Both the position numbers and the translations under genes were made by a program. A stretch of DNA of 40,476 nucleotides from an uncultured Burkholderiales bacterium (GTDB lineage: Bacteria; Pseudomonadota; Gammaproteobacteria; Burkholderiales; Burkholderiaceae_C): positions 1 to 40,476 of the forward strand of contig CAIOTD010000014.1 of NCBI GenBank assembly GCA_903861115.1, given 5' to 3'. Positions 35,672 through 40,476 of this stretch are shown in pieces; the stretch's first letter is position 1, and the number at the start of each line of letters is the position of its first letter. The notes under the pieces are model-generated. The model had not been told where the DNA came from and did no database searches. It was given only the letters and a program-made list of their open reading frames with translations.

Positions 35672-36409
35672 TTAATTAGAAATTTCTAGCTTCAAACACA
35701 ATTGATAGCCCTTGCCCCAAACAGACTTGATGGCTGGCTCGGTATCGGCAGGCGTCACCGCTTTGATTTTTTTTCTCAGTCGAGCGATCATCTCCTCCAA
35801 CGCATGTTTGCTCATGATGTCGTCCACATCTTCAGAGGTGAAAAGGTCACTCAAAGAGCCCGAATCAAGGATATTGCCCTTGGCATTGACCAAGGCAATC
35901 AATAGGGTTTTCTCACGACTCGTCAAGCGCAACTTGTTGACGCCATCCGGGGTCACCAAGACCCGGTCTTGGATTTTCAAAGTCCATGCGTTTTCGGTCA
36001 ACAGTTTCTTCACGCGTTTGCCCAAGCCCTGTAAAACCAAAACCAACTCAACTGGTGAGACCGGCTTGGTCAAGTAGACATCTGCCCCGCCATGGCTATA
36101 ACCTGCAATGCGGTCATGAAGATTGGCGTTGGCTGTCATGATGACAATGCCTGCATTGGGCAAGCTTTGACGAATTCTTTTGGATAAACTCAAGCCACTC
36201 TCACCAGGCAAATTCATATCCAGAACAAAGATATCGATGGATTCAGAGATGAGTGAATCATTCAACTCTGAGGCACTGGCTGCAGAGTAAACAATAAAGC
36301 CGTTGGCTTGCAGGTGAGTTTCTACCTCTTGGCGCAAAAGCCTGTCGTCCTCTACAAGCGCGACAACAAATTGATGGGGGTTGTTTAATTTTAGATTCAT
36401 CCTAGACAA
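35672..36409 (-). CDS. OmpR-family response regulator
   Basis: Receiver VALVEDDRLLRQEVETHLQANG, DIFVLDMNLPGESGLSLSKRIRQ, YLTKPVSPVELV; winged-helix C-terminus IKSVWGKGYQLCLK. Confidence 0.92.
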   Translation of the reverse strand: MSRMNLKLNNPHQFVVALVEDDRLLRQEVETHLQANGFIVYSAASASELNDSLISESIDIFVLDMNLPGESGLSLSKRIRQSLPNAGIVIMTANANLHDRIAGYSHGGADVYLTKPVSPVELVLVLQGLGKRVKKLLTENAWTLKIQDRVLVTPDGVNKLRLTSREKTLLIALVNAKGNILDSGSLSDLFTSEDVDDIMSKHALEEMIARLRKKIKAVTPADTEPAIKSVWGKGYQLCLKLEISN

Positions 36410-38327
36410 TCAACTTAAAGACGGCCCGACGCTCACTGATAGAAAATTGAATTTCTCTATTGAGCTTGTCGAGCGCTGTTTTCACAATACTGAGTCCAAT
36501 GCCCATGCCGGGCTTGGTCATCACGTTCTCTTGACGATAATAACGGTTGAAAATTTTCAATTCATCTGGCCTTTGATTTTCCGCAAAGAAGTTTGAAATC
36601 TCAAAAACAACGCGATCTTCGTATTCTGTTGACGCTTTGTTCGCCATGGCGGGCTCGTTGGGCGGGCACTTATAAACAGAGATGGTGATCGGCCCCTCGC
36701 GAGAGTCGTATTTATAGGCGTTGTCAATTAAATTTTTGATCACATGGTTTAAGAGGATGGGGTTGGTGTAAAAACAAATGTCTGGGCTCACGTCAAGACT
36801 GAAGCGACTTTCATCGGCATAGTCACCCATCAACGACTCAATGAAATTCAAAGCCGCAATACGCTCAAGTGGATAGGTAATTTCATGGGTTTCCAAGCGA
36901 TTGGACAATGCAACTTGTTCGATCAAATTCTTCATTCTGTCAACAGATGACTCAATTCGACCCAATCGCTTCAAAGTGGTCTCTTCCTCAGTCGTTGGAC
37001 GCTGCAAGGACGCCAAAGAAAATTTCATGGCGCCCAAGGGATTCATGAGCTCATGCGTCAACAAATCGATCAAAGTGGAACGCTCGCGAAGTCTCTCCTC
37101 GTTCAACTTTGACTCATTTGAGATGACCTTTAACTTCTCTAGCTCCAACTCTGTGTCCAGTTTTTTTCGTCTGGCCTCGTAAATACCAACGATCAAAAGC
37201 AGTGTACCCACAAATGTGCCGTTTAAGTTTGAATAATATTGGACAACAAACGGAGCTGAAATGTTTGTCAGCGCAAAAATATTCGAGATGCCCAACAAAA
37301 ACAAAACAAGGTAGACAAGGGTCGCGACAAGCAACAAGTTCTTGATGTTTTGATGTTTAATCTTGCCCGTAAACAGTCCATAAATTTGGGTCAACACATT
37401 GAACAGATGAATGCCCAACTGAACCTTCAAAGCCAAATTGATGTACCCCAATGGAATCAAAAGAATGTCAATGACTGTCAAAAATCCAATCAAATACAGC
37501 AAGCGAAAATAACCTTTGCTGAGCTCATAGGACTTCAGCAAAGAAAAGACCAATTGAGCAATCAAAATCGCGCGCATACAAGCGACATAGTAGCTGAAGG
37601 ATTTGATCTGCTCTGGCGTGAGAAAATCAATGTAAGAAGTGATCAACCCCGTCGCATAAAAAAGATTGAAGACGATCACAATTTGAAGACAAATGTAGGA
37701 AAAGACCAAGTAACTTGGGCGGTACAGGAAAAAGGCGATCGTGGAGATCAAAAAGATGACGCTCAAGGCGAGTGATGTCGTCGACTTCCTGACTTTTTCA
37801 ATATTAAGAAAAGCCATGTCTTCGGCATGCAGCACATCCACGTGCAAATAAATCACTCCATGCGATTGAACCTTGAGGTAAATCGTGTTGGCAATGGAAG
37901 GGTTGGAGAGCAACTTGAAACAATGTGCATCTTCCGAGCAAGCCTCATTGGTTTCTTTGACGATAGCGCCTTTGACGGCCTTTTCCCAGGTGTGATTGAC
38001 CGATTCGTACTTTTCAATCCAGTCTGTGAAATAAGGACCAATTCTTAGCTTCAAAGGATTGGCTTGAAAAGACAACTGCTCAAACAAAGGTGCGACTTGA
38101 ATTCGAACCCAAATGGGGTGATCAACATAGCCCAGTCGCAACTCATTTTCGTAGTCCTTGAAAGGTTGTTCCAGAACAGTCTCGATGGTCTGAGTGCCTT
38201 CCGTATCAAGAAAATAACTTGTTTTAAAGGCAACACTGCGCTCTGCACCCAAGCACACCGTAGAGACCCAAAAAATAAACAAACAGCGAAAGAGAAAAGT
38301 CATGATTGGCATTTTATGGGCCATCAT
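36402..38327 (-). CDS. 7TMR-DISM-type sensor histidine kinase
   Basis: Signal peptide, periplasmic beta-rich domain, ~7 TM segments, H-box LIDLLTHELMNPLGAMKFSL, N-box VIKNLIDNAYKYD, G-box KPGMGIGLSIVKTAL; 8-bp overlap with regulator. Confidence 0.92.
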   Translation of the reverse strand: MMAHKMPIMTFLFRCLFIFWVSTVCLGAERSVAFKTSYFLDTEGTQTIETVLEQPFKDYENELRLGYVDHPIWVRIQVAPLFEQLSFQANPLKLRIGPYFTDWIEKYESVNHTWEKAVKGAIVKETNEACSEDAHCFKLLSNPSIANTIYLKVQSHGVIYLHVDVLHAEDMAFLNIEKVRKSTTSLALSVIFLISTIAFFLYRPSYLVFSYICLQIVIVFNLFYATGLITSYIDFLTPEQIKSFSYYVACMRAILIAQLVFSLLKSYELSKGYFRLLYLIGFLTVIDILLIPLGYINLALKVQLGIHLFNVLTQIYGLFTGKIKHQNIKNLLLVATLVYLVLFLLGISNIFALTNISAPFVVQYYSNLNGTFVGTLLLIVGIYEARRKKLDTELELEKLKVISNESKLNEERLRERSTLIDLLTHELMNPLGAMKFSLASLQRPTTEEETTLKRLGRIESSVDRMKNLIEQVALSNRLETHEITYPLERIAALNFIESLMGDYADESRFSLDVSPDICFYTNPILLNHVIKNLIDNAYKYDSREGPITISVYKCPPNEPAMANKASTEYEDRVVFEISNFFAENQRPDELKIFNRYYRQENVMTKPGMGIGLSIVKTALDKLNREIQFSISERRAVFKLIV

Positions 38328-38701: not shown

Positions 38702-40476
38702 ATGTCTAATGCCTCCCAGGTTCAAAAAGAGTTGAGCAACGTATCAACCGCACACCCCTCTGGCCTCACACCCCACATCATCTTGGTGGCGGCTCTGTTG
38801 TACATGATGTCCACCGATGGGGATTTGGCACCAGAGGAAATCTCAAGACTGCAAGAATCGGTTGGCAAGGACAAGGACGCGATCCCAACAGCAAGAAACT
38901 ACATCAAGAAAAATAAATTTGATAATTTCTTAAGAGACTCAGGCGAAATCTTAGACAAGCCAAGCAAACTTTGCATTCTGGCCAATGTGTATGAGTGCAT
39001 GCTCTCCGATGGTGTTGTTCAAAAAGCAGAAACCAAACTCTTTCAAAAAATTCAGAAGGAATACGGATTCAACGACAAAACTTTTGAAAAAATTTCAAGC
39101 GTTATCCTTACCAAAAACGACGGCGCCGTTTTAGGGAAGTATCAACCCTCTCCAACGGGTCAAAATACGCTCACACCTCACATGATCCTTGCGGCATCCA
39201 TTTTGTACATGATGTCTGCCGATGGTGAGGTCAGCGAAGAAGAAATTGGACAATTGTCTGCGGTGATCAATCCCTACGAGGGTTTGCAAGATGCTGCAAT
39301 GGCCTATGCTGAAAAAGTCAAGCTGCATGAATTCATCATCGGCGCGCAAAAGTCACTCAACCCACAGCAAAAAATTTATGTGCTTCTGAATTTGTGTGAC
39401 TCGATGCTTGCCGACGGGTTTGCTGAACCCCGAGAAGTTGAAATTTTCAATCAATTTTTAGACGTCTTTGGCTACACAGAACACGCGTTCAAGCCGTATT
39501 ACAGTGTCATACACATCAAAAACGTCAAGCCCTTTGAGAGCAAAGATTCAAGCCTTGAAGAGTCTCATGGTTTGTTCAAGAACATCATCAATGACGACAA
39601 AGGTGGTTTTACAGTTGTCGGCTCTGACGGGACCCATTCGTCGGACAAACAAATGCATGAACGAGTGATTCAAGATGACACGGATGGCGAGAAAATCCGA
39701 AGGACCATGGAGGAGAACGCCAAAAATGTGAAAGATGGCTTTGGTTCAAGCGAACACATTGCTGTGGTTGCCGACAATGCCCTCTCAACCAAGAAGCAAG
39801 ACTTCATCTCTCAAGAAAGCAGCGAGCTCAATATACAAAAAGCCTCCGCTGGCGATGGGACTGACAATGTACAAAAGGTCTCAAGTGACGGCCCGGAAGA
39901 CAATGTTCAAAAAATAAACGACGGCTCTACAAGTCTTAACGTACAAAATATTGCCAACAGCAGCACAGACGAGAACACGCAAAAGATCAAGCTTTCAGCA
40001 GACGCCTCCAATGTTCAATCCATCGATGAATCAAAGAGCGTGGACAATGTTCAAACGCTGGGCACCAATCAGTCAAGTGGAAACACTCAAACCATCAGCA
40101 ATGCTGGCAGTGCGGACAACACGCAGACCATCGGCAATGCTGGCAGTTCGGATAACACACAGACCATTGAAAGCGATTCGTCCCTTGAAAACGTTGCAAA
40201 ACTAAACGTCTCCGCCAACGCTGACAACAAAGTTGAAATCTCTTCAGATCAAAGCACAAGCAATCTCCAGTCTCTTGATGAGAGCAACGCTGCCCTCAAT
40301 ACGCAAAAAATCAATTCCGCTGCAACCCTTGACAATGTTCAATCCCTGGCATCCAATGCGACCGATCAAAACAAGCAAAGCATAGATGCCGACGCTGCAG
40401 GTTCGAACAAGGCAAAAATTCAAGCCTCAACCATTGACATCAACATACAGCCTGGCGATAAAAAACAAAGCGCACA
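38702..40476 (+). CDS. Tandem TerB-like domain protein with C-terminal 12-residue repeat tail (3' truncated by window)
   Basis: Open frame from ATG 38702 to window end (591 codons, no stop; absent from ORF track). Domain 1: LTPHIILVAALLYMMSTDGDLAPEEISRLQ...CILANVYECMLSDGVVQKAETKLFQKI. Domain 2: LTPHMILAASILYMMSADGEVSEEEIGQLS...VLLNLCDSMLADGFAEPREVEIFNQF. Then repeat tail. Confidence 0.88.
   Translation, partial: MSNASQVQKELSNVSTAHPSGLTPHIILVAALLYMMSTDGDLAPEEISRLQESVGKDKDAIPTARNYIKKNKFDNFLRDSGEILDKPSKLCILANVYECMLSDGVVQKAETKLFQKIQKEYGFNDKTFEKISSVILTKNDGAVLGKYQPSPTGQNTLTPHMILAASILYMMSADGEVSEEEIGQLSAVINPYEGLQDAAMAYAEKVKLHEFIIGAQKSLNPQQKIYVLLNLCDSMLADGFAEPREVEIFNQFLDVFGYTEHAFKPYYSVIHIKNVKPFESKDSSLEESHGLFKNIINDDKGGFTVVGSDGTHSSDKQMHERVIQDDTDGEKIRRTMEENAKNVKDGFGSSEHIAVVADNALSTKKQDFISQESSELNIQKASAGDGTDNVQKVSSDGPEDNVQKINDGSTSLNVQNIANSSTDENTQKIKLSADASNVQSIDESKSVDNVQTLGTNQSSGNTQTISNAGSADNTQTIGNAGSSDNTQTIESDSSLENVAKLNVSANADNKVEISSDQSTSNLQSLDESNAALNTQKINSAATLDNVQSLASNATDQNKQSIDADAAGSNKAKIQASTIDINIQPGDKKQSA
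39830..40476 (+). repeat. 36-bp-period coding tandem repeat (12-aa units N-x-Q-x-[IL]-x7), 17 complete units plus partial 18th
   Basis: Units begin at 39830 + 36n, e.g. NVQKINDGSTSL, NVQSIDESKSVD, NTQTISNAGSAD, NTQTIGNAGSSD, NTQKINSAATLD; unit 18 starts at 40442 = exactly 17 x 36 after unit 1. Confidence 0.95.

Follow-up and report, generated by a model that had tools for sequence, protein, structure and literature searches.

The 12-residue repeat N-x-Q-x-[ILV]-x7, found as a long array in a TerB protein of a freshwater Limnohabitans bacterium, is a genuine module, kept by selection and so far undescribed, whose function we infer. The window, which is the whole stretch of 40,476 bp analysed here, corresponds to contig C14. 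The repeat protein (family F1) starts with an ATG at position 38702 and is open at the contig end, and 591 residues are encoded within the window. The relevant features are as follows.

35672..36409, minus strand: OmpR-type response regulator that forms a two-component system with the kinase below (Pfam Response_reg 1e-21, Trans_reg_C 9.8e-11)
36402..38327, minus strand: divergent histidine kinase gene (Pfam 7TMR-DISMED2, HisKA, HATPase_c)
38702..40476, plus strand: F1 TerB-repeat protein, residues 1-591 (open reading frame, Pfam TerB 1.1e-13, overlap with contig C197, start of the orthologue in genome G018)
38771..39133, plus strand: TerB domain 1, covering roughly residues 24-144, with two DGx5E loops that are present in 29/29 orthologues (helical in AlphaFold2, pLDDT above 85 for the most part)
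39176..39523, plus strand: TerB domain 2, covering roughly residues 159-274, again with two DGx5E loops that are present in 29/29 orthologues (best Pfam stretch 163-263; AlphaFold2)
39680..39817, plus strand: helical segment, residues 327-372, with an R-x-M-x2-N core before the array (AlphaFold2 pLDDT of about 66-91 for the greater part of the segment)
39830..40474, plus strand: array of N-x-Q-x-[ILV]-x7, 17 complete units and part of an 18th, with two more on C197 (unit table, shuffle test, codon and indel analyses)

The TerB protein and its array

The nucleotides 40203-40476 of the window recur at G000:C197:5581-5854 (274 bp) with four mismatches, which point to strain variation in the assembly. 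The assembly probably broke inside the repeat array because of this variation. Extension of the contig, a step proposed in the sequence-only reading, was thus possible: C197 supplies the rest of the gene, which gives an array of 20 units and a joined protein of 979 aa. The join is sound, because the F1 orthologue in G018 (locus L257) is followed by the same genes as on C197, encoding an ion channel, an outer-membrane protein and a TctC-like protein.

The joined protein consists of two TerB domains, the 20-unit array, a short coiled-coil-like helix, an acidic linker and a weakly hydrophobic segment near the C-terminus. In the helical segment that precedes the array, R334, M336 and N339 correspond to near-invariant columns of the orthologue alignment. 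Nearly all full-length F1 proteins have a hydrophobic segment 27-137 residues before their C-terminal end, and it is predicted to be a membrane anchor. The anchor is likely rather than proven, because the mean hydropathy of the segment is low in the window's own clade (1.27-1.47).

Pfam TerB (PF05099; gathering cut-off 24.4 bits) matches F1 in two stretches with 52 bits. It is the sole Pfam family over its cut-off; no Pfam or NCBIfam model matches F1 outside TerB, and no J-domain was found. The TerB pair is modelled confidently by AlphaFold2, and structure comparison of the whole F1 model recovers a TerB-like fold (2h5n) weakly. The four DGx5E loops are intact, with identical spacing, in all 29 orthologues. 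F1 therefore resembles the PF05099 family in its two matching domains and the complete set of acidic DG...E loops, but differs from it in being a tandem TerB protein with a repeat tract, a helix, a linker and a C-terminal membrane segment. TerB proteins are common and poorly understood, and the family is tied to metal or membrane stress. By analogy with the family, the F1 loops probably serve in the sensing of divalent metals or membrane stress.

The array starts at residue N377 (base 39830). The sequence-only reading had described regular 12-aa units, each starting with Asn, usually with Q at position 3 and an aliphatic residue at position 5. This description holds for the 17 complete units of the window (N1 in 17/17; Q3 in 14/17, the others being A, V and A; I/L/V at position 5 in 16/17), and no indel breaks the phase. 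In the joined array, the 20 in-phase units have N1 in 20/20, Q3 in 15/20 and I/L/V at position 5 in 18/20. Among 20,000 shuffles of the same residues, the best phase had 10/20 Asn.

No repeat family in Pfam or NCBIfam, including RTX, pentapeptide and other named repeats, matched F1, F2 or F3 at E up to 0.1. This agrees with the earlier statement that the unit was not recognised as a named repeat and is distinct from RTX and pentapeptide repeats. Literature searches found no published description of this 12-residue repeat. PADLOC gave no match for the repeat, and a reading as a defence gene was rejected on this basis.

In the codon analysis of F1 against its G018 orthologue, where synonymous sites are at or near saturation, dN was 0.04 at N1, 0.05 at position 3, 0.27 at position 5 and 0.97 at positions 6-12, while it was 0.17 in the TerB domains. 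N1 and Q3 are therefore held more tightly than TerB, and the spacer sequence is almost free. The length of the unit is also selected. Per 1000 residues, the arrays have about 2 to 4 small indels and the other parts outside TerB 10 to 15; small indels are 3 to 7 times rarer in the arrays, as counted over protein pairs that are not independent of each other. The indels in the arrays are mostly whole units. Across the genus, the motif-to-motif spacing is 12 in 123 cases in F1 and 292 in F2, and 13 in 10 and 99 cases, respectively; 0.25 to 0.5 cases are expected in shuffled proteins (0.25 for spacing 12). These data support the earlier proposal that the phase is kept by selection.

That proposal had also set selection against recent duplication, and this part needs a restriction. 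The units of the window share on average 41% of their DNA sequence, and the array is therefore old, apart from units 8 and 9, a recent-looking pair with 86% DNA identity. Near-identical units are seen in some relatives, such as G016. Some arrays have super-periods of two units and others of three units; these are read as block duplication, and recent block duplication also happens in some relatives. A universal two-unit coil was rejected, as the super-periods vary and no general two-unit period is seen.

A second carrier, gene neighbourhood and distribution

Many genomes that carry F1 encode a second protein with the array, F2, of about 360-770 aa. Its N-terminal motif is of the type [IV][IV]RSxxxHxVxVxxGxxNAK. 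Between 5 and 30 units follow, and then a helix at the C-terminus, FHGRxxxIKxxVxxLNxxLDxxE. The array and the helix make up most of F2. No TerB was found in F2, and a hydropathy scan found no membrane-length hydrophobic segment anywhere in it. By these sequence features, F2 is a predicted soluble protein that carries the repeat array of F1. For F2, the A1 profile matches F1 at 4.3e-31, and the helix after the F1 array corresponds to the C-terminal helix motif of F2 without gaps (hhalign probability 94.6). When 30 arrays were fetched by DNA pattern alone, 28 belonged to F1 or F2/F3, one was cut by a contig end and one was unassigned. The array does follow TerB domains in F1, as the sequence-only reading had noted, but the coupling to TerB is not general, because F2 has the array without TerB.

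In a protein search, 30/61 genomes of the genus have F1; several of these, many being draft genomes, lack a detected F2. The repeats of F1 and F2 are more alike within a genome than across genomes (p 0.00065; 0.009 after GC correction) in a comparison of 18 genomes not corrected for phylogeny. The same likeness was not seen for linkers and TerB, and one of the four controls, a composition control, reached p 0.04. This is modest evidence for pairing of F1 with F2 or for exchange between their genes.

A short protein of a flagellar locus, free of the repeat in the window's genome, has an F2-type helix (E 3.6e-7, from a small set that included shuffled controls). In G050, G019 and G012, the gene at the same place of the flagellar locus itself bears the array. 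Limnohabitans, and likewise another genus of the family (L251), has a set of three genes downstream (3') of flhB. They encode a SPOR-domain protein, a coiled-coil membrane protein and a short protein that bears either the N-terminal motif or the C-terminal helix of the F2 type (L249:3444-6687, L251:5114-7851, L199:1456-7263 and L248:2359-3894). In L251, the SPOR position has no Pfam match. Two members of the set lie beside flagellin in the window's genome. Flagellar genes are widespread in Limnohabitans, as FliG_C is present in 28/30 genomes tested (G000 and 29 others).

A histidine kinase gene adjoins F1 in 21/29 loci, and two different kinase types are seen. No kinase gene adjoins F1 in the other eight. 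Of these eight, the four loci that were read from a six-locus clade all have F1 after an HrcA-like gene. An hrcA-like heat-shock repressor gene lies about 1.3 kb upstream of F1 in L008, L009, L019 and L020. In the window's clade, F1 is followed by a voltage-gated-type ion channel gene (Ion_trans, 3.4e-19; L257:3166-4155 and L003:3415-4407), and ion signalling in the same pathway is thus suggested.

DjlA of Escherichia coli is a membrane protein with a TerB-like domain and a J-domain that acts on the Rcs phosphorelay (PMC11709261). It resembles F1 in the tie of a TerB-like domain to the inner membrane and in the link to a two-component phosphorelay, which in F1 is a link by gene neighbourhood. 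DjlA differs in its N-terminal membrane helix, the membrane segment of F1 being C-terminal, and in having one TerB-like domain and a J-domain, while F1 has a doubled TerB and a repeat array without a J-domain. By analogy, the knowledge on the TerB family, together with DjlA and the kinase linkage, suggests a membrane stress pathway. A location in the cell envelope, as proposed in the sequence-only reading, is probable from the predicted C-terminal membrane segment and the neighbouring two-component genes.

True arrays are confined to Limnohabitans among the genomes sampled. A DNA pattern of three consecutive units matches 54/81 Limnohabitans genomes (species) sampled, and a reversed control pattern has no match in the same 81. 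Among 351 genomes of the family, from 141 genera, arrays were found in Limnohabitans only, and G592 has a single unrelated match. Among 349 genomes of the phylum, the window's own genome is the only one with an array, the others having single unrelated matches. A wide distribution was rejected: over these 700 genomes of family and phylum, single unrelated matches are seen in eight other genomes. Some of these lie out of frame or within simple direct repeats, and the reversed control pattern also gave a few matches. A scan of genome collections for F2 returned only records of Limnohabitans, Comamonadaceae, Burkholderiales and Betaproteobacteria. A mobile or viral origin was also rejected. The matches of the DNA pattern in viral contigs are low-complexity tracts and short-period repeats, no relative was found in phages, and the matches in plasmids are to TerB only.

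Possible structure and role of the array

AlphaFold2 models of the arrays of F1 and F2, built on shallow alignments, have pLDDT 30-47 and no strands. The array is thus modelled as disordered in the free protein. The beta-solenoid suggested in the sequence-only reading is unsupported, because these models give the array no structure (pLDDT < 50).

Curlin is a further point of comparison. Its repeat of 22-23 residues consists of two 11-residue motifs, and its defining features are Q7, an X-G-X-X arc, the 11-residue motifs and confident AlphaFold2 solenoids with a mean pLDDT of 83 (PMC10192328). The array resembles curlin (CsgA) in having N1 and an aliphatic position 5 in each strand-sized unit (N in 20/20 and I/L/V in 18/20 units of F1, and the same in F2). 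It differs in several ways. The unit has 12 (13) residues instead of 11, and Q occupies position 3, where curlin has a hydrophobic residue. At position 7, F1 has A/D/S/E/N, and F2 has T/S/N/A, with Q in 10%. The X-G-X-X turn is absent, G being found at position 9 in 12-14%. Curlins are secreted by CsgG with an N-terminal signal, and the hydropathy scan found no membrane-length hydrophobic segment in F2. There is no confident beta-solenoid model. Membership in curlin was rejected on Q7, the turn and the period; we treat the array as one that may work like a curlin rather than as a curlin. The earlier statement that the repeat differs from curlin is correct for Q7, the turn and the 11-residue half-period, but the register of N1 and aliphatic position 5 is common to both.

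The F2 profile matches the curlin R15.5 of Pontibacter korlensis (8c50) at 4e-6. This match is lost in 13/16 within-unit permutations and in 4/4 full shuffles, and it therefore depends on the register and not on composition alone. Single-sequence searches with the F1 and F2 arrays found no curlin.

Four readings of the array can be compared. Tentatively, and at less than even probability, we prefer the array as a multivalent, self- or partner-pairing cytoplasmic tract that connects a membrane-bound TerB sensor with the soluble F2 protein. Pairing of strands in register is suggested by spacers that are free in sequence yet fixed in length, together with three conserved positions on the same face. 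Gene conversion, however, could also yield the within-genome likeness of F1 and F2. A possible but somewhat doubtful alternative is a disordered tether with many copies of a linear motif, NxQx[ILV], bound by a third protein, in which TerB senses and the array recruits. The low pLDDT and lack of strands in both families fit a tether, as do three conserved positions between free spacers. The lengths of the spacers should then drift, but small indels are suppressed in favour of whole units and the spacing keeps to 12 or 13 throughout the genus. The binder might be, for example, a protein of the flagellar locus or of the two-component system.

A curlin-like beta-solenoid or beta-arch stack, possibly polymerising, with N1, Q3 and [ILV]5 as inward ladders, seems unlikely. 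It would explain the fixed unit length, the position of N1, Q3 and I5 on one face of a strand and the register-dependent match to 8c50. Against it are the models without strands from shallow alignments, far below the pLDDT of curlin, the missing Q7 and turn glycine and the single-sequence searches. Block duplications, seen as super-periods of two and three units and in the near-identical units of G016, would be expected if the array were an almost neutral low-complexity tail phased only by unequal exchange of 36-base units. Such a tail is very improbable, as it is contradicted by the conservation of N1 and Q3 above TerB at saturated synonymous sites, and the units of the window share 41% of their bases.

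Under the preferred reading, a pairing tract between F1 and F2, F1 would be anchored in the inner membrane by its C-terminal segment, with the two TerB domains facing the cytoplasm. The short strand-like motifs, disordered when free, would bind in register to motifs in F2 or in other copies, and the coiled-coil-like helix could oligomerise. The soluble F2 scaffold would thereby be held at the membrane under the control of TerB, and the assembly might act in the same pathway as the neighbouring two-component system. A more specific version is less probable still: the TerB sensor and its soluble partner, with 5 to 30 motif copies each, could co-evolve as a genus-specific cytoplasmic tract and, once TerB is triggered, zip together in register to form an ordered and perhaps amyloid-like assembly.

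One abundant freshwater genus, among the genomes sampled, thus has an undescribed and strongly selected 12-residue repeat in two different proteins, and one of the carriers is a predicted TerB membrane protein beside a two-component system. Because F1 joins a TerB head to a conserved multivalent tract and F2 is a candidate for its soluble partner, cultured Limnohabitans allows direct tests of a TerB pathway. Should the tract become ordered on binding, it would represent a register-controlled assembly distinct from curli.
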